NCBI GenBank assembly: GCA_002689385.1
Contig: NZFX01000005.1
Coordinates: 1-57,124 of the forward strand
Reading direction: 5' to 3'
Origin: Phycisphaerae bacterium
GTDB lineage: Bacteria; Planctomycetota; Phycisphaerae; Phycisphaerales; SM1A02
DNA length: 57,124 nt
The position numbers and the translations under genes were made by a program. A model generated the notes under the pieces. That model was not told the DNA's origin and did no database searches. It was given only the letters and a program-made list of their open reading frames with translations. This document shows positions 28,149-36,111 of the stretch, piece after piece. The stretch's first letter is position 1. The number at the start of each line of letters is the position of its first letter.

Positions 28149-29185
28149 ACGCTCAAAAAGTACACGCACTAGAACTTTTTCCACGAGATATCGATGCCAT
28201 TGTTGCTGAAATTGGTTTGCCAACTTTTGCGGGTAAGCAAGTGCTCGATTGGATTTATCAAAAGCAAGTTACGAGTGTTGATGAAATGTCAAACATTTCA
28301 AAAGAAAAACGAGAATTGCTTGCTGAACGGATTTATTTTCGGCGATCAAAGTGCCTCAAAACACAAAAAGCATCAGATGGCACAATCAAAAAACTCCTTG
28401 CATGGGACGATGGTTCAAAACAGACAGAAACAGTAATGATTCCCGCAAAGGAAAGACGGACTGCATGTGTTTCAAGCCAAGTGGGATGTCCAGTGAAGTG
28501 CACTTTTTGTGCATCAGGACTTGACGGTCTTGAAGGAAGCCTCGATGTTGGGCAAATCGTTGAACAAGTGGTCGCACTTGGCGGAAACGACATTTCAAAC
28601 ATTGTATTCATGGGAATGGGCGAACCACTTGCAAACTACAACGCAGTAACACGGGCAATACGAATACTCAATGCACCTTGGGGGTTGGGCATAGGCGCAA
28701 GGAAAATTACTGTTTCAACTGTTGGCTTACCTGTTGCTATAGAAAAACTTGCAACTTTTGACATACCAGTAACGTTGGCACTGAGTTTGCACGCGCCCAA
28801 TGACGAGGTACGACAAAAACTTATTCCATGGGCGCGTTTTGCAGCTATTGAAGACATTCTAAAATCATGCAACAACTACTTTGAATCAACCGGCCGAGAA
28901 ATCACGCTTGAATATTTATTGCTAGGCGGGGTCAACGACCGAACAGTAGATGCAAAAGAACTCATCGGTCTTTGCCGAACATTGCGATGCAATGTAAATT
29001 TGATTCGCTATAACGAAGTATCAGAACTTGAATATAAAAGACCGAAAACAGAACAAGTTCGCAGGTTCCAAGAAATATTGACTAAGGCGGGTGTAAACAC
29101 ACATATTCGAGCAAGTCGCGGTAGAGATATTTCAGCAGCTTGTGGCCAGCTCAAACGAGAATACACACAGATTACTGCTGAATAA
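28145..29185 (+). CDS. rlmN: 23S rRNA/tRNA adenine C2-methyltransferase (RlmN)
   Basis: A 346-residue radical-SAM methyltransferase that methylates A2503 of 23S rRNA and A37 of some tRNAs. Cys115, Cys119 and Cys122 form the CxxxCxxC cluster motif. G-M-G-E-P-L-A-N-Y, S-T-V-G-L and S-L-H-A-P-N are family signatures, and the C-terminal S-A-A-C-G-Q-L carries the methyl-relay cysteine. The start is a TTG at 28145, overlapping the ispH TGA; no better in-frame ATG covers the N-terminal domain. Its 3' end overlaps the convergent gene by 14 bases. Confidence 0.95.
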   Translation: MNAQKVHALELFPRDIDAIVAEIGLPTFAGKQVLDWIYQKQVTSVDEMSNISKEKRELLAERIYFRRSKCLKTQKASDGTIKKLLAWDDGSKQTETVMIPAKERRTACVSSQVGCPVKCTFCASGLDGLEGSLDVGQIVEQVVALGGNDISNIVFMGMGEPLANYNAVTRAIRILNAPWGLGIGARKITVSTVGLPVAIEKLATFDIPVTLALSLHAPNDEVRQKLIPWARFAAIEDILKSCNNYFESTGREITLEYLLLGGVNDRTVDAKELIGLCRTLRCNVNLIRYNEVSELEYKRPKTEQVRRFQEILTKAGVNTHIRASRGRDISAACGQLKREYTQITAE

Positions 29186-32100
29186 TCTTTTTAATCTCTT
29201 CAAGGGAAGTAGTGTGCCACTTACTTTCTAGTGCAAGTTTATTCAGATTAGCAAAAACATCTACCCAATGATCGTAACAATCTGGGGATGTGATCGCATT
29301 ATTTATAGCATCAGAAATTGTTTCGCGAACCGCTTTATCTCTTTTATGTCCGCGCCATCTTCTAGGAACAAATCGACCAACACCTGAAACAAATACTGAT
29401 GACCAGTCGCTCGTGCGAAGGTCGACTTGCAATGACCACTTCCATAATCGCAAACGGAATCTCGATAAAAATCTTCGTTTTAAAGTATCACCACGAGAGT
29501 GCCGAACGTTTAACTGTTTTCGAATCCGCCGAAGTATTTCAGGACTCCTTGCTAAACGAGCTAGATAAATAGGATCCCGGATTAACATAGATTCAGCAAG
29601 TGGCAAAATCACATTGCGAGTAAGTTGACGGCCATTTTCAGCTGAGTCAACTTCATAAACCTTGCACAAGGCCTTGAGAAATTTGGTTGCCACTTCTTCC
29701 CCGCCCCAAAGCATACAACGACGAATTCCGTTCATTATATCTGTCAAAGACTGTCGGCCATCCACGCTCTCGTACAAACCAGGCAAAGATTGTCGACACT
29801 GCCTAAGTAATCTCTTGACGACTTCTGCATTTGCTACAGAACGCCCACCCTGTTTTTGTAAATCTCGTACACAACGCTTCTCTAGTTTAGCAAGATCGAC
29901 TTTTGTTTCCTCTGCAATTGGTTTCCAAGCATCGTCTGCTTCTATAGCTACACGGCGCCCAAACTCAAAAGCTTCTGCACTACGAGCAAAACCTTTTTTC
30001 TCTATCGCATGCACGGCAAGAAGCATTGCGTCTACTGTTGCCGGGATGTAACCCATCTGAAAAGCCATGCCCAGTTGCACAACATCTCCAAGTCGTTCAT
30101 TGTGAAAACGCACCCTTGCAAGTGAGGCAAAACCTCGGAGTATCAACTTCTCAGCGTTACAACATTTTGAGAGCGCGCGGTCGTCAAAAGGAACCAACGC
30201 ATTGTTTTCGTCTTTGATCTCTGTCTGATGTTCAAGTAAATCGATGTTCACAAGTGCAAAAGTTTTTGCACTTGTACTTACGCGCAAATTTCCCGCTGGA
30301 TCAATAGCACGCAGTACTTCCTCACGGTCCCAGCCCAACAATAGATCTGCTTCGCCCCAGGGAATCGACCCTATGAGTGGCCGATACGAATTTGTAGTCT
30401 GCTTTCGTGTATACAAAATCTGAGACCATGCACATCGACCTGGTCCAACAAATCGGTTATTACATTGAACCCGAATGTCGTACCCCATTTGTATCCCAGC
30501 ATGGATCAAAATATTTCCTACAACACCTGGCTGCGTGCCTCTTGACCCCGCAATGTGCACACGCCAATTTGGAGCAGAACCATGCAGAACTTTAGGCGGT
30601 GCAAGCCCAGCGGTACTTTTTGTAACCACTCGAACTGGTGGCTTACTCCTTGTAACTTCAACCCGTTCTAAAATAGGCCGAAGTGATATGCTCCACCGAC
30701 GGTAGTCGGGCTCTAACCACCGTGTTGACATCGATGTTTCTAAGGGCATTGCTGGCGTCGTAGTTTTTGTTTTCCAAGGATCAAAAGGAACTATCCGTAC
30801 TGGCGTAAGTTGCTCCATCGGGATAACGATGGCATGTTGCTGCCTGAAGCCAAGCTTATCGACTTGGGAAGCAACTTCAGCAAGGCGTCGTAAATCAAAC
30901 CGTGGATCTTCGCTATCCCGAACAACAATGACACTCACGCCATCTTTTGCAGATGCATTCTCGATTGCTTTATCAAGTTCTTCACCTTGGTCAATCGCAA
31001 CTTCTAGTACTTGCTTTCCATCATCGCTTTTGGATGGCAAAATTGCACTGATAAGCGACATTAGCGCGGACCCTATAGCAAAGTTTCGCCAAACAATAAT
31101 AACTCGTGTCTCATCTCGAGAAACTGCATACCGAAGAACATTGATGCCGCTATCTAAGAACCGATCTTCGCCCCATGTCTCAATAAAAATCTTAGAGCCC
31201 TCGCCATTTTTTACCGTAAAGCCATCGACCAAGACATGACTATTTGATTCAGAATGGCAAAGAACACGTTCAGCCATCGAACGCAATAAATCAAGAGCAC
31301 CCTTCGTTCCAAACTCCGTTCGTTTAGTTGGTTTTGCTTCAAGTAATGCAAATTCGGGTGATAGTAATTCACTAATGTTGGCTGAAGGGCTGACTTCTTT
31401 CAAAAGGTGCTGGGTTAGACGCGCCACCACAGAGGGATGAATCGCATTTACAGGAACAGGCACTGCTGGGCCTTCTGGAGTAAACGGTGGAAGCTGTTTG
31501 CCCCAAATTGAAGCAACTTCTCTGCCTTCACGGCGCATTGATTGGGCGATACGAATAATTTCTTGTTCAACTTCTCCCGGTCTTGGTTCAAGCACAACAA
31601 CGTGGCGGCAGCGAGAAAGCAACCGCTCAACAGGAAATTTATCGATTGGATGTACCAATCGTACGTTCAACATCGGAACTCTGCCTAACAATTGCAATTC
31701 ACTAACTAGGTACTTCAAAGATAAATCGGACTCGCCTAGAGTGATGAATCCAACCTCGACTTGTTCGCCTGGGCTAGGCAAGGTTCGCTGACGATTGAGT
31801 TCGAGTCGACGCCCCAAGTGCAACGGTGTTGTTGATTCAACTGTTGAAGAAAGTGCTTGATATGGATTTCCAGTTTTGCGAACTTCGGTTGCAGAGCTTG
31901 CAAGAAGGCGATGGTGAAGAAGCAATACAACCGGAGCACGAAGTGAATGAGAAAAAGAAACTGCAGCAGACGCACAATATTGAATCTCCGTCGAGTCACA
32001 TGGTTCAATGACTGAAATGCCCGCTTGTTTCGCACGTTCTCTTGGCAGTAACTGGCTAGCAAGGGCGGGATGATCTTCGACAACTAACACGATAGGATGA

Positions 32101-32375
32101 TCAGTAATCAAAACCCTGCAAAATTCATAGACCGAAGATATTTGCCTATTAGGCACAAAAACAATGGCAGGTTTCTCTTTTTCAATAGCAAGAACAACAC
32201 CTCGCTTTGCAGTTGGTACTGTTCTAAAGTTTTGATAATGAGCGAGACCATCGTAAAACGGTTCGCTTTCTGGTGCAAATAAACGCCACGATTCCTCAGC
32301 AGATACTGCTTCGATAATAGAAGGTAAGGGCCAAGTTAAAACTATCTCTGGTGCAGTTGCTGAACTTTCATGCAT
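29172..32375 (-). CDS. Indolepyruvate:ferredoxin-oxidoreductase-like protein with degenerate cofactor sites
   Basis: A 1067-residue protein with the domain order of fused 2-oxoacid (indolepyruvate) oxidoreductases. The regions are a pyrimidine-domain-like segment at about 60-190 (D-H-P-I-V-L-V-V-E-D-H-P, V-I-E-P-C-D-S-T-E, A-P-V-V-L-L-L-H-H-R), a transketolase-C-like domain at about 215-310 (V-E-V-G-F-I-T-L-G ... H-P-I-D-K-F-P ... V-V-V-L-E), a thiamine-diphosphate-domain-like segment at about 370-550 (G-E-D-R-F-L-D-S-G-I-N-V-L), a gamma-subunit-like domain at about 620-770, and a helical C-terminus. The expected motifs are absent: no C-x-G-C-P, no G-D-G...N thiamine site, no CxxCxxC clusters, and the G-x-G-G-x-G loop reads G-S-R-G-T-Q. 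ATG 32375 overlaps the upstream HAD stop as TGATG. Probably no longer an oxidoreductase; function unknown. Confidence 0.7.
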   Translation of the reverse strand: MHESSATAPEIVLTWPLPSIIEAVSAEESWRLFAPESEPFYDGLAHYQNFRTVPTAKRGVVLAIEKEKPAIVFVPNRQISSVYEFCRVLITDHPIVLVVEDHPALASQLLPRERAKQAGISVIEPCDSTEIQYCASAAVSFSHSLRAPVVLLLHHRLLASSATEVRKTGNPYQALSSTVESTTPLHLGRRLELNRQRTLPSPGEQVEVGFITLGESDLSLKYLVSELQLLGRVPMLNVRLVHPIDKFPVERLLSRCRHVVVLEPRPGEVEQEIIRIAQSMRREGREVASIWGKQLPPFTPEGPAVPVPVNAIHPSVVARLTQHLLKEVSPSANISELLSPEFALLEAKPTKRTEFGTKGALDLLRSMAERVLCHSESNSHVLVDGFTVKNGEGSKIFIETWGEDRFLDSGINVLRYAVSRDETRVIIVWRNFAIGSALMSLISAILPSKSDDGKQVLEVAIDQGEELDKAIENASAKDGVSVIVVRDSEDPRFDLRRLAEVASQVDKLGFRQQHAIVIPMEQLTPVRIVPFDPWKTKTTTPAMPLETSMSTRWLEPDYRRWSISLRPILERVEVTRSKPPVRVVTKSTAGLAPPKVLHGSAPNWRVHIAGSRGTQPGVVGNILIHAGIQMGYDIRVQCNNRFVGPGRCAWSQILYTRKQTTNSYRPLIGSIPWGEADLLLGWDREEVLRAIDPAGNLRVSTSAKTFALVNIDLLEHQTEIKDENNALVPFDDRALSKCCNAEKLILRGFASLARVRFHNERLGDVVQLGMAFQMGYIPATVDAMLLAVHAIEKKGFARSAEAFEFGRRVAIEADDAWKPIAEETKVDLAKLEKRCVRDLQKQGGRSVANAEVVKRLLRQCRQSLPGLYESVDGRQSLTDIMNGIRRCMLWGGEEVATKFLKALCKVYEVDSAENGRQLTRNVILPLAESMLIRDPIYLARLARSPEILRRIRKQLNVRHSRGDTLKRRFLSRFRLRLWKWSLQVDLRTSDWSSVFVSGVGRFVPRRWRGHKRDKAVRETISDAINNAITSPDCYDHWVDVFANLNKLALESKWHTTSLEEIKKIIQQ

Positions 32376-33247
32376 CACGAATTTGCCCCTGGGATAATCC
32401 AATTGTGCATCGCAGTCGCAAAGCCATGGTTGTCGTGATGATCAGCAATGACATGTGCAAACTGTTGTACATATTCGTTTGCATTTTTCATAACAATAGA
32501 AAGTCCAGCTTCACTAAGCACCTCTACATCATTCAAACCATCACCTATTGCTGCAATTTTATCTGCATCAATAGATTCACCCAAGTGCCGCTTAAGCATC
32601 GACCATTTGTTCACGTCATAGCCAAACACTTCAAGTAAGTGCGTCGAAGAACCTGTAGCTTCAGAGCAGGTCACGGCAGACCAATGTTGCAACTTCGCTC
32701 GACCTTCAAGGGAAGATTTCAGCCGTTTTGCAATGGGTAGTAACTCTTCTTCATTGGCAACTGCGCCGACTCGTAAAGTGTGTTCTGGCCATGGATCTTC
32801 ATCAATTGAGCTAACTTCAACAACAGCTACATTATGTGTTTCAAACCACCAGGTTGATGCATCATGCAGGGGTGCGTCGCCTACTAACACATAAGGAGAT
32901 TCGCAAATTGTTGAATCCTTAAGAAGTAACGATCGGTGCCCTGATGAAAGAACTTGCTCAGTTACCTCCTGCACAACAATGGTGTCAACAATCCCACGAG
33001 CCAGTGATTTGCCGTCAGTGCAAGTGAGCAAGGATCCTCCAGCCGAGATGCAAACCCCACTATGTTGCATGGCTTCGAGAATATGCTTGCACTCACCTAC
33101 GCTCCTGCCTGTAGCAACCACAATTTCAACTCCATGCTCACGGACAATATCCAAAGCATGTAAATTTTGATCTGACACTTCGCCTTGGCTACACAACAGC
33201 GTGCCATCTAAATCAAGTACTAAAACATCCCATTGCGAAGTTTTCAC
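32375..33247 (-). CDS. HAD-superfamily phosphatase, Cof type
   Basis: A 290-residue HAD hydrolase with a C2B cap. Motif I is L-V-L-D-L-D-G-T-L-L with nucleophile Asp and acid Asp, motif II lies in V-A-T-G-R-S, and motif IV is I-G-D-G-L-N-D-V-E-V-L. Members dephosphorylate sugar phosphates, PLP or similar metabolites; no specific substrate is evident. The start is GTG at 33247. Its stop overlaps the start of the next gene as TGATG, so it is translationally coupled to the oxidoreductase-like protein, an unusual partnership that may point to a shared task. Confidence 0.9.
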   Translation of the reverse strand: MKTSQWDVLVLDLDGTLLCSQGEVSDQNLHALDIVREHGVEIVVATGRSVGECKHILEAMQHSGVCISAGGSLLTCTDGKSLARGIVDTIVVQEVTEQVLSSGHRSLLLKDSTICESPYVLVGDAPLHDASTWWFETHNVAVVEVSSIDEDPWPEHTLRVGAVANEEELLPIAKRLKSSLEGRAKLQHWSAVTCSEATGSSTHLLEVFGYDVNKWSMLKRHLGESIDADKIAAIGDGLNDVEVLSEAGLSIVMKNANEYVQQFAHVIADHHDNHGFATAMHNWIIPGANS

Positions 33248-33361
33248 TCGTTATAAACTATGTTCTTAGAGCAATAAAGGCAACCCCTTCAAGAAAAGAC
33301 TTGCCTCATTACCTAATTTACCTTACTCTAATTATGTGAAAGTTCTTCTAGAGAATCGAAC

Positions 33362-34321
33362 ATGATTGAATCTGCTAAAAGCAGTATTTCATCTTCACTG
33401 GCAAGTTCACTCGAGCCTGTCTTGAAAAAACAAACACATAATCGAGTTGCCAATATACATTGGTTTCGCACAGACTGGCAACGAGGTGGTGCTTCTACCG
33501 GTTTTGCGACTTGGCAAAGTGATGATGGTAAAACAACTCCAGCAGTTATAAAACTACCTGTGAACCAAAAAGAACTTCTTTGGACTCGAAAACTCCAAGA
33601 ACAAAACGGCGTCGTACCGCACCTTTACGCAAGCGGCGAAAAGCTAAACGGGTATGACCTTGCTTGGATTATTATTGAACGTTTCCCTTACGGACCACTC
33701 GGCGGTCATTGGGATGATTCTAATATTACCCGTATTACAGAAGCCGCCGCCCGCTTCTCAAAAAAAGCATCGCTATTTCCGATTGACCAAGAAGGGAGAC
33801 GAGAAGATTGGAAAGTGTTGTTGAAGAATGCAAAAAAAAGCGTTCGCGACAATCGTATCCAAAACGAATCACAGTGGAAAAAAGCGCATTCTCTGCTTAC
33901 AAAAAAACTTAGCCAAGTTATTGAAATTTGGCGCGCGAGAAGAATTGACCAGTGGCTTCACGGAGATTTGCATTTAGCAAATGCAATGTGTCGATGCGAT
34001 GACCCTGATTCAAAAGTTGTGCTCATTGATTTAGCCGAGGTCCATGCTGGTCACTGGATTGAGGATGCAATCTATCTAGAACGCCAATTATGGGGACACA
34101 AAAGCCGCTTAAAAGCGACGAAACCCGTTTCAACTATGGCCACAGCAAGAAAAAATTTAGGTATGCGCGTTGATGACGATTACAATACGTTTGTCGATGT
34201 ACGACGGCTCATGCTCGCTGCGACCGCACCTGCATTTATGCAATCAGAAGGCGATCCAAGATATTTAACGTCTTGTTTAGAACAACTACAGAATGCACTC
34301 GACCGTCTTCGACTAAAATGA
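33362..34321 (+). CDS. Aminoglycoside-phosphotransferase-like kinase
   Basis: A 319-residue protein of the APH/choline-kinase fold. The catalytic loop H-G-D-L-H-L-A-N-A-M near residue 200 and the metal site V-V-L-I-D-L-A-E-V lie in the expected order. The second motif usually reads I-D-x-x; here I-D-L-A-E keeps the aspartate. It probably phosphorylates a small hydroxylated molecule; antibiotic resistance should not be assumed. The next gene, a sulfotransferase, begins 16 bases after the stop, suggesting a two-gene unit for modifying a common surface or secondary metabolite (inference). Confidence 0.8.
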   Translation: MIESAKSSISSSLASSLEPVLKKQTHNRVANIHWFRTDWQRGGASTGFATWQSDDGKTTPAVIKLPVNQKELLWTRKLQEQNGVVPHLYASGEKLNGYDLAWIIIERFPYGPLGGHWDDSNITRITEAAARFSKKASLFPIDQEGRREDWKVLLKNAKKSVRDNRIQNESQWKKAHSLLTKKLSQVIEIWRARRIDQWLHGDLHLANAMCRCDDPDSKVVLIDLAEVHAGHWIEDAIYLERQLWGHKSRLKATKPVSTMATARKNLGMRVDDDYNTFVDVRRLMLAATAPAFMQSEGDPRYLTSCLEQLQNALDRLRLK

Positions 34322-34337
34322 CGAAGATAGACCGAAG

Positions 34338-35297
34338 ATGTTCAAGGCAATACTCAATTCAATTCGTCCAGTTGCACGTTCCATAAAATATGGCAAACTA
34401 TTACAACGCGCAAAAAATGATGCAAAGAAGCAAAGCAACGCTGAACATACACCACCTGTTGCTTTCATACTTGGTTGCGGTCGATCAGGCACAACTATTT
34501 TAGGGAAGTTACTCAAAGAGAACAGCGAAGTGCTCTATCTCTTCGAACCGTACCATCTTTGGAAAACGGTTTGTTCTCAAACAGACATGGTGCAACTGTA
34601 TTCAAAGGAAGAAAGCAAAACACATTGTATTCTTGGGGCTGCAGATGACCACTCTGCCTCAAAACGTTTTAACGCGTGCATACAAGGCGAAATCCGTCGC
34701 TCAAAAAAGCTGAGCCCATGTGTTATCGAAAAAACCCCAATCAATGCGATGCGTCTCCCCTTTTTACATTCCTTAAGCCCTCATTCGAAGGTTCTCCATA
34801 TTGTTCGTAATGGTATTGATGTAGTTCGTTCAATTGAACGGCTCTCGAGTGCAAACTCATACCAAATGAGCGGCAAGGGTAATTGGAATCAATGGTGGGG
34901 TCGGGACCACTGCAAGTGGCACTCGCTTGTTGCAGACGCAAAAACAAATGGGTGGTTCGCAGACGAAGTCGAGCAATTGAGTTCAAACATAGAAGTGGGC
35001 GCACTTGAATGGCTGGTAAGTTTGAAAGAAATCGAAAAACACCGTCAACTATTTGGTGATAATCTTATTGAAATAAGATACGACCAACTGACCCAGAACC
35101 CAAATGCAGAGCTTACCCGCCTTTGCACCCATTTTGGGATTCAACCGTCTGTATCATGGCTCAACTATTGTTCAGAGCATCTTGACTCTGCTCGGAAAAA
35201 TGCGGGCAAAATGATAGTTTTACCCATCAAGATGTGCGAAGCTTTCAATGCGTTCCAGGAACAATACGACTTTGAAGGGCGAGCAACGACCGCCTGA
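34338..35297 (+). CDS. Sulfotransferase family protein
   Basis: A 319-residue PAPS-dependent sulfotransferase. The 5'-phosphosulfate loop is F-I-L-G-C-G-R-S-G-T-T-I-L-G near residue 40 and is followed by E-P-Y-H-L-W. The 3'-phosphate-binding region is H-I-V-R-N-G-I-D-V-V-R-S. I-R-Y-D-Q-L-T-Q-N-P marks the C-terminal third. It transfers sulfate from PAPS to a carbohydrate or other hydroxyl acceptor. Sulfated polysaccharides are prominent in marine planctomycete ecology, but the acceptor here is unknown. Confidence 0.88.
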   Translation: MFKAILNSIRPVARSIKYGKLLQRAKNDAKKQSNAEHTPPVAFILGCGRSGTTILGKLLKENSEVLYLFEPYHLWKTVCSQTDMVQLYSKEESKTHCILGAADDHSASKRFNACIQGEIRRSKKLSPCVIEKTPINAMRLPFLHSLSPHSKVLHIVRNGIDVVRSIERLSSANSYQMSGKGNWNQWWGRDHCKWHSLVADAKTNGWFADEVEQLSSNIEVGALEWLVSLKEIEKHRQLFGDNLIEIRYDQLTQNPNAELTRLCTHFGIQPSVSWLNYCSEHLDSARKNAGKMIVLPIKMCEAFNAFQEQYDFEGRATTA

Positions 35298-35355
35298 ATG
35301 ATTTCATTACCTTTGTTTCTATGCTAGTATGTACGATTCTAAAAGGAATCCCCAA

Positions 35356-36111
35356 ATGGACCAAGACCGATTAAAAGATATTCAAACGGCTGATCTTTCA
35401 GACAGCCAAGTAAACGAAGATTTCGTGCATTGGTTGAAAACCAAGGGGCCGAGTTACTTACTGATTGTGATGATTGTTATCGTGAGTTATTTGTTCTTCG
35501 TTCGTTACCAACAAGGCGAAACTGCTCATCGTGCAGAAGCTTGGATTGCTTACCTTGAAGCTCAAGCATCTGGACTTCCTGCTTCCCATGAAGATGTCGC
35601 AAAATCCTATGCTGATGTTGATTCCATCGAAGCACTTGGTTTACTTAGCGCAGGCGATGCATACTTAAAATCAATAGTGACTGGACTCGCAATCGGTAGT
35701 AATGCAGACATTACAACACCACTTGCCGAGGAAGACAAAACATTCTATCTTGAAAAAGCTGACAACTTGTATTCGATGGTGGTACAACTTGATGACAACA
35801 CACCTGCGTCTGCACTTATCACTATCAGTGCACTAAACGGTCGTGCTGCAATCGCCGAAGCTACTGGCGATGTTGTAACTGCACAAGGGTATTACAACAA
35901 TGTTATTGCTCGGATTTCAGACCAGTACCCTGCGCTTGCCAATCAGGCACAAAGTAGAATCGATACCCTCGGTGCTTTGACAAGTGCTATTTTGTTACCC
36001 ACTGATGCCGAAGTATCTGCTCGAAATGCTCAAATTGTTCCTCGCGAAACTGCACCAACCAATACTTCCATTGATGGACTCTCTGATTTAACTAACTCAG
36101 ACGATCAATAA
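35356..36111 (+). CDS. Single-pass membrane protein, YfgM-like
   Basis: A 251-residue protein with a cytosolic N-terminus containing V-N-E-D-F-V-H-W-L-K-T-K-G, one transmembrane helix at about residues 36-55 (Y-L-L-I-V-M-I-V-I-V-S-Y-L-F-F-V) and an extracytoplasmic helical, TPR-like domain rich in Ala. The layout matches YfgM/ancillary SecYEG-translocon-type proteins, but identity is not certain. ATG 35356 follows AAAAGGA and is chosen over the ATG at 35329. The pseudouridine synthase gene starts at the very next base after its stop. Confidence 0.7.
   Translation: MDQDRLKDIQTADLSDSQVNEDFVHWLKTKGPSYLLIVMIVIVSYLFFVRYQQGETAHRAEAWIAYLEAQASGLPASHEDVAKSYADVDSIEALGLLSAGDAYLKSIVTGLAIGSNADITTPLAEEDKTFYLEKADNLYSMVVQLDDNTPASALITISALNGRAAIAEATGDVVTAQGYYNNVIARISDQYPALANQAQSRIDTLGALTSAILLPTDAEVSARNAQIVPRETAPTNTSIDGLSDLTNSDDQ

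Follow-up and report, generated by a model that had tools for sequence, protein, structure and literature searches.

Does a protein laid out like a fused 2-oxoacid:ferredoxin oxidoreductase (OFOR) still act as one when its cofactor sites can no longer be recognised? The question is raised by a gene in a 57,124-nucleotide stretch of DNA from a Phycisphaerae bacterium (contig NZFX01000005.1; the window, below, is this whole stretch), whose 1067-residue product we call PSI, for pseudo-indolepyruvate oxidoreductase (pseudo-IOR). A preliminary description, made from the letters alone, had read in it the domain order of the fused enzymes, could not find their cofactor motifs and suggested a repurposed pseudoenzyme. 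Judged by its sequence, PSI is a conserved pseudo-oxidoreductase: both features by which a pseudoenzyme is recognised at this level were found, namely the absence of catalytic residues throughout the group and retention of the gene under purifying selection. The gene is read from the minus strand, which that description did not say, within an open reading frame (ORF) at 29172..32402 that yields 1067 residues between the ATG at 32375 and the stop codon at 29174-29172, and translation of the same interval on the plus strand gives many stops.

Fold and cofactor sites of PSI

At E-values up to 10, DUF6537 is the only Pfam family reported for PSI (E 1.5e-5, 25.5 bits versus a cut-off of 27); PF01558 (POR) is not reported. 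Below threshold, NCBIfam matches a fused IOR model, PRK13030 (E 1.5e-14, strongest over 586-956), and an unfused one, IOR_alpha (E 4e-6, residues 95-283), and the scores of the curated families are not reached (52.7 bits versus 816 for NF009589, 29.1 versus 952 for NF009588). No other enzyme family is seen in PSI by Pfam and NCBIfam. Against the PDB, phmmer finds nothing below E 0.17; with the family profile there are just two weak matches to thiamine diphosphate (ThDP) domains (E 0.004-0.005) plus one at 0.43. The viral library BFVD holds two ThDP-enzyme matches at E <= 0.001.

The relationship comes out clearly when profiles and models are compared. Aligned by hhalign, a profile of 30 PSI relatives (A3) and a profile of eight intact IORs from the same order (A2) match with probability 100 and E 3.5e-105 over 1081 columns, at 20% identity. 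An AlphaFold2 model made with the 30 sequences (pLDDT 83.7, pTM 0.82) has chains of pyruvate:ferredoxin oxidoreductase (PFOR) as its top 18 Foldseek matches in the PDB (best E 1.2e-10), with whole-chain TM-scores of about 0.3. VIA-align superposes it on 2-oxoglutarate:ferredoxin oxidoreductase (OGOR) 6n2n (Z 25.4, rmsd 3.1, 294 aligned residues, model 8-326) and on PFOR 7plm (Z 23.8, rmsd 4.2, 481 aligned residues, model 8-814). Folded in isolation, residues 342-532 give a pLDDT of 76.6 and a pTM of 0.67, and Foldseek places them with the PP domains of ThDP enzymes (best E 5.4e-4); among the matches listed by VIA all are ThDP-enzyme chains, with a moderate best Z of 10.5 and an rmsd of 10.0 there and 3-6 in most others.

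Cofactor motifs were tabulated in 49 aligned rows: 36 from the bacterial family of the window (f1; f2, f4, f5 and so on denote other families of the class, L a locus and G a genome), four from f4, one degenerate row from f6 and eight intact enzymes (six f5, two f6). Fragments L013 and L019 were retained among the 36, and L050, a different, unfused IorA-like gene, was dropped. Regular expressions for CxGCPH and GxGGxG match all eight intact enzymes and none of the 41 other rows. A GDGTFFH-type expression matches 5/8 intact rows, the remaining ones reading GDGTFYH (two) and GDAAYFH (one), and a CxxCxxC-type expression for Fe-S ligands matches 3/8, yet aligned cysteines are present in all eight; both again fail in the 41 others.

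Single residues were followed in 22 f1 rows (L045 was dropped from this count) against a canonical set of 15 planctomycete enzymes from f5, f6, f9, f10, f11, f13, f14 and f15, whose numbering is used here. Of 163 columns invariant in the canonical enzymes, 56 polar, glycine or cysteine ones are kept in at most two of the 22 rows; 52 columns are conserved in both groups, and 16 switch from one canonical residue (>=80%) to a different f1 residue (>=90%). E76 of the Pyr domain, which we take to be the ThDP-activating glutamate, is found in 0/22, and all four f4 rows have Asp there. In the GDG..N element of the PP domain, presumably the metal and ThDP motif, D511 is kept in 0/22 rows and N539 in 1/22; in the 36-row table, Glu stands at D511 in eight and Asn at N539 in five. 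Eleven Fe-S-type cysteines are invariant in the canonical set; ten of them are kept in no f1 row. Opposite the remaining one, C653, stands a Cys in 16/22 (19/36 in the larger table), but the window has Thr. In the gamma loop, GxGGxGxG has become GxRGxxxG, with G744 (22/22), G747 (21/22) and G751 (22/22) kept, G746 lost from every row (Arg in 21/22) and G749 present in 1/22.

A relocation of the cofactor ligands was considered and rejected. The one Fe-S expression gave no alternative cluster, and the Glu of WGED and the Asn of WRN, as the window reads at the two metal positions, occur there in only a minority of f1 rows. Such motifs can be read elsewhere in the genome of the window, which also has an intact pair of KorA/KorB-like genes for a two-subunit OFOR (G000:C82) whose sequence contains CPGCGDY and SGDGD. 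This pair occupies G000:C82:2500-9500 (L157) and is followed, 5 bases on, by another ORF, which we presume to be MnmG (GidA)-like.

The preliminary description survives this comparison, with two qualifications. The order pyrimidine, transketolase-C, thiamine, gamma and helical C-terminal domain agrees with the IOR models, the profile-profile alignment and the OFOR and PFOR folds, the helical end being a sub-threshold match to DUF6537. Both the profile match and the fold match are strong, and the alignment places no intact thiamine or Fe-S site. The thiamine motif is missing as stated. The cysteine clusters are missing too, except that a cysteine is aligned at C653 in most relatives, though not in the window, and the G-x-G-G loop, likewise not matched in any of the 36 rows, is altered and not erased, three of its five glycines being still in place.

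Distribution, origin and constraint

A family profile (A1) detects PSI in 142/151 f1 genomes, in 96/98 of those of good quality and in 44/45 genera. Copies are usually single and mostly form one open frame of >1050 aa; in several genomes the gene is in pieces. In-frame TGA codons in L151 (G342:C37) lie in a stretch where this copy and its relative do not align, as local indels would produce, and UGA recoding was rejected. Two copies are present in G347, G380 and G031. The second copy in G031 (L035, G031:C41) is divergent; that genome has 7% contamination, and the copy may come from a contaminant or be a paralogue.

The search for intact fused IORs in the 151 f1 genomes came up empty: the canonical profile A2 does not exceed 307.4 bits there, against 1403-2376 bits for most full-length intact enzymes in a search of the class (248 genomes). 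Unfused IorA-like matches occur in a few f1 genomes (G020, G291, G023). One of them, L050 (G020:C90), carries CAGCTHR and GDSTFFH in an open frame of 1142 residues that continues into a cysteine-rich part resembling, by eye, the small subunit of glutamate synthase. The class search returned high-scoring full-length fused IORs in eleven families (f5, f6, f9-f15, f17, f25), with motifs checked in 15 sequences only, and no match among the f2 genomes listed. A search of the phylum (392 genomes) at E <= 1e-105, a threshold too strict for, among others, the f6 genome G057, matched 16 genomes: ten f1, two f4 and four with intact f5 or f6 enzymes.

Degenerate copies were found in f1, in f4 (L037, L038, L047, L048) and in one f6 genome (L049). 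The preliminary description had asked whether active-site residues are lost in all planctomycete orthologues; they are lost in these three groups but not throughout the phylum, intact fused IORs being present elsewhere in the class. Two f6 proteins are possible intermediates: L046 (G041) retains the cysteines and GVGGTG and has GDAAYFH in place of GDGTFFH, and L049 (G057) matches none of the four motif expressions but retains more of the PP domain. A tree of 47 rows sets f1, f4 and L049 apart by a branch with SH-aLRT 98; they stand next to the planctomycete IORs, and the divergent L046 lies close to the base. The grouping recurs in a second tree of 45 rows, made without L045 and L035, but there the proteobacterial rows attach elsewhere. 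Because of the long branches in these trees, a single loss of the sites is likely rather than proven.

The ratio of nonsynonymous to synonymous substitution rates (dN/dS) of PSI is 0.166 between L051 and L057, which are 93% identical and form the sole unsaturated pair, more distant congeners being saturated. In the same pair the neighbouring genes give values that bracket this one: 0.059 (rlmN), 0.098 (rluD), 0.126 (HAD phosphatase), 0.131 (ispH), 0.144 (APH) and 0.175 (a 260-aa ORF), the rluD and ispH values being from partial sequences. Within PSI the ratio rises from 0.039 in the transketolase-C-like (TKC) domain through 0.127 in the PP relic, 0.186 in the gamma region and 0.229 in DUF6537 to 0.298 in Pyr.

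Conservation over the family was compared in sets of ten canonical and ten f1 rows, hand-picked for diversity. Invariant columns fall from 19% to 2% in Pyr, from 19% to 2% in PP and from 24% to 3% in the ferredoxin segment; the figures for TKC (12% and 12%), gamma (18% and 15%) and DUF6537 (7% and 9%) are close to each other. Mean pairwise identity is 0.35 in f1 and 0.49 in the canonical set. Family-wide, this says that constraint has gone from the redox half of the protein and has been kept in the rest. The close pair tells the same in TKC and Pyr and disagrees in the PP relic and DUF6537.

The intact frame described earlier and the view that it is not a simple pseudogene are upheld by these data, and dN/dS, which the preliminary description proposed to check, is low in the one usable pair. 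The proposal of a repurposed pseudoenzyme is supported as well, "repurposed" being what retention and constraint suggest.

The locus and its neighbours

Coordinates of PSI, its regions and the adjoining phosphatase gene are collected below.

Features of the PSI locus (coordinates in the window; residues are those of PSI)
Feature	Coordinates	Strand	Remarks
PSI, 1067 aa, fused 2-oxoacid:ferredoxin oxidoreductase relative without recognisable cofactor sites	29172..32375	-	
Pyr-like domain, residues 8-180	31836..32354	-	ThDP-activating Glu absent (0/22); R58 and E100 invariant in 30 rows
Transketolase-C-like (TKC) domain, residues 181-328	31392..31835	-	lowest dN/dS of the protein; RRLELNR..LPSPGE motif
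Shortened PP (thiamine-domain) relic, residues 342-532	30780..31352	-	GDGTFFH and NxTTAMTG not matched; lacks the CPGCPHR segment
Linker, residues 533-600	30576..30779	-	stands where intact relatives carry a cysteine-rich ferredoxin-like segment
Gamma (POR)-like region, residues 601-830	29886..30575	-	GSRGTQPG versus GVGGMGIG of intact enzymes; GPGR.AW and GEADLLLG motifs
DUF6537 region, residues 831-1067	29175..29885	-	Pfam match at 882-1009, just below the cut-off
HAD phosphatase (Hydrolase_3)	32375..33247	-	directly upstream of PSI; start/stop overlap

Translational coupling, proposed in the preliminary description, is borne out by the sequence TGATG, in which the stop codon of the HAD phosphatase gene (32377-32375) has one base in common with the ATG of PSI. 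The phosphatase, which we take to be of the Cof type, contains DLDGT and GDGLND. At its 3' end PSI shares 14 bases with the end of the rlmN ORF, which converges on it. A scan of 29000-33500 for promoters and terminators found sites no more numerous than in shuffled sequences.

The order murE-murF-mraY, rluD-ORF-APH (opposite strand), HAD-PSI and rlmN-ispH (opposite strand) is mostly kept in 34 named f1 relatives. HAD lies upstream of PSI on the same strand in 30/30 of the relatives' loci that reach that side, and a start codon allowing a 4-base overlap with its stop is present in 22/30. APH was not found in eight loci reaching its place (L063-L065, L069-L071, L074, L078), nor rlmN in L073 and L078, and it is about 3 kb distant in L074. 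The IOR genes examined in other families are not at the place of PSI, and the window genes adjoining PSI were not found beside them. Two good f1 genomes without PSI (G341, G345) are also without a close HAD match; there the pair is missing together, through assembly or through loss.

The conserved block of the window also holds a sulfotransferase gene (34338-35297), between APH and the 260-aa ORF. Of the 35 loci compared, some of which end short of that place, three were seen to have it (the window, L051 and L055), a distribution that is one of patchy gain or loss. The 260-aa ORF itself (35329-36111) seems, by eye, to contain a membrane helix; it matches nothing in Pfam at 0.01 and adjoins rluD in most syntenic loci.

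Possible roles and known relatives

It is very likely, from the residues that are missing, that PSI no longer oxidises 2-oxoacids. As to what it does instead, we give an even chance to the view that it is a pseudoenzyme in which the cofactor sites of an IOR were lost within Phycisphaerales and the protein was kept for a structural or regulatory purpose. An ancestral fused IOR would have lost its ThDP, metal and Fe-S sites in this order, after which the protein would have been retained for its structural or regulatory role. The OFOR architecture might then be maintained as a cytosolic scaffold, whose working surface would be the TKC/gamma/DUF6537 core and not the old thiamine site. Its likeliest partner would be the co-translated HAD phosphatase, with PSI controlling its activity or substrate supply. 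A scaffold or regulatory role through this core, with the phosphatase as first candidate partner, has about even odds. We take domain III of OFORs to be equivalent to the gamma domain. For an archaeal OFOR, a passage of PMC5020499 describes domain III as a wing holding ferredoxin in a modelled complex, which offers a precedent for docking by a gamma-equivalent domain.

Several observations weigh against such a scaffold. The link to the phosphatase is one of gene adjacency only, and f2, f4-f6 and others also have HAD homologues, away from the window genes tested, none of which lies within about 1.5 kb of them (the sole exception, L125, is from an f1 genome). The word "cytosolic" comes from the N-terminus read by eye. 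In the close pair the PP relic is tighter than gamma and DUF6537, which is a poor fit with a relic in the one and a working site in the other. Residual ligand-like residues (C653, Glu at D511, Asn at N539 and the Asp of f4 at E76) persist, never as a full set. Finally, 62 columns are invariant in 30 rows; many of them are charged, which a new active site could also account for.

A related idea, which we hold tentatively and somewhat short of an even chance, is that the TKC/gamma/DUF6537 part of fused IORs has a second, cofactor-independent function, the binding of a metabolite or of a protein such as HAD, and that this is now its sole function in these Phycisphaerales. If so, PSI would belong to the core gene set, amount to a naturally occurring knock-out of the redox half and offer a handle on the role of DUF6537.

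The charged invariant columns lead to a rather unlikely alternative, a neo-enzyme with a new site built from E100, E192, E399, R612, R647, E675, R754 and R761 that would catalyse another reaction, independent of cofactors, whose substrate may be what the phosphatase consumes or produces. In several of the 16 switched columns Glu or Arg has replaced glycine or a hydrophobic residue, some lie in the gamma loop and beside what was the thiamine motif, and the low dN/dS of the PP relic and the two-gene unit with a phosphatase point the same way; however, Pfam and NCBIfam see no other enzyme family in PSI. Improbable is a role as partner or regulator of the cell's intact KorA/KorB-like OFOR through mixed oligomers: the two have a superfamily fold in common and the OFOR pair is in the same genome, but the genes lie on different contigs. 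That PSI is still an active 2-oxoacid oxidoreductase with unconventional cofactor ligands is very improbable. The recognisable domain folds, the Cys at C653 in most f1 rows and the Glu and Asn at the metal positions (8 and 5 of 36 rows, the window included) would favour it, whereas the ThDP glutamate, the metal-site Asp and ten of eleven cysteines are absent from all 22 rows and the residual ligand-like residues are not conserved across f1. The chance that the gene is decaying or a product of metagenome assembly is negligible: it evolves faster than canonical IORs (by branch lengths and pairwise identity) and a few copies in single assembled genomes are split or frameshifted (L080, L151), but retention in 142/151 genomes, mostly in one long frame, together with the dN/dS, rules out a pseudogene or artefact, and the neighbours are conserved in named relatives.

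A conserved pseudo-oxidoreductase matters for several reasons. A literature search, with most subscription papers outside it, found no account of PSI, of DUF6537 or of an OFOR pseudoenzyme. As far as we found, a nearly full-length pseudo-oxidoreductase without ThDP and Fe-S sites, near-universal in one family, is undescribed, and PSI, by the residues it has lost and the constraint it keeps, is a pseudoenzyme in a superfamily where we found none described. The series from intact enzymes (f5, f9 and others) through the divergent, mostly intact L046 and the motif-less L049 with more PP domain to the shortened f4 and f1 proteins may show stages in the stripping of a large redox enzyme that is nevertheless kept. 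With PSI the unexplained gamma/DUF6537 module becomes open to direct tests on its own. It is also a warning for annotation, as IOR homology here does not imply aromatic 2-oxoacid metabolism; the protein has probably been turned to a different use in a planctomycete lineage that keeps it in nearly every genome examined.

Among the closest known systems are the fused IORs (PRK13030/NF009589, PRK13029/NF009588): PSI has their order Pyr-TKC-PP-gamma (POR)-DUF6537, the last as a sub-threshold match, and is homologous over nearly its full length, but is without the ThDP glutamate, GDG..N, CxGCPH and ten of eleven cysteines, and its gamma loop reads GxRGxxxG. A passage of PMC13285125 notes that subunit fusions differ among the IOR, VOR and KOR types. 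The degenerate f4 IORs and L049 are alike in their motif losses and group with f1 in the tree, whereas their neighbourhood differs and identity to the window protein is about 23-33% in partial local alignments; L049, unlike PSI, keeps more of the PP domain, and f4, unlike f1, has Asp at the Glu position. We take residues 786-1170 of PFOR to be its PP domain (domain VI). A passage of PMC8945911 places segment 786-1170 of 1232 after domain III, while the PP region of PSI precedes its gamma region. In structure, the PSI model aligns from residue 8 with OFORs 6n2n and 5b48, the latter archaeal (Z 24-25, 287-294 residues) and, within residues 8-814, with PFORs 2c3y, 6cip and 7plm (Z 22-24, 476-486 residues), and differs from these enzymes by the loss of the cofactor ligands.

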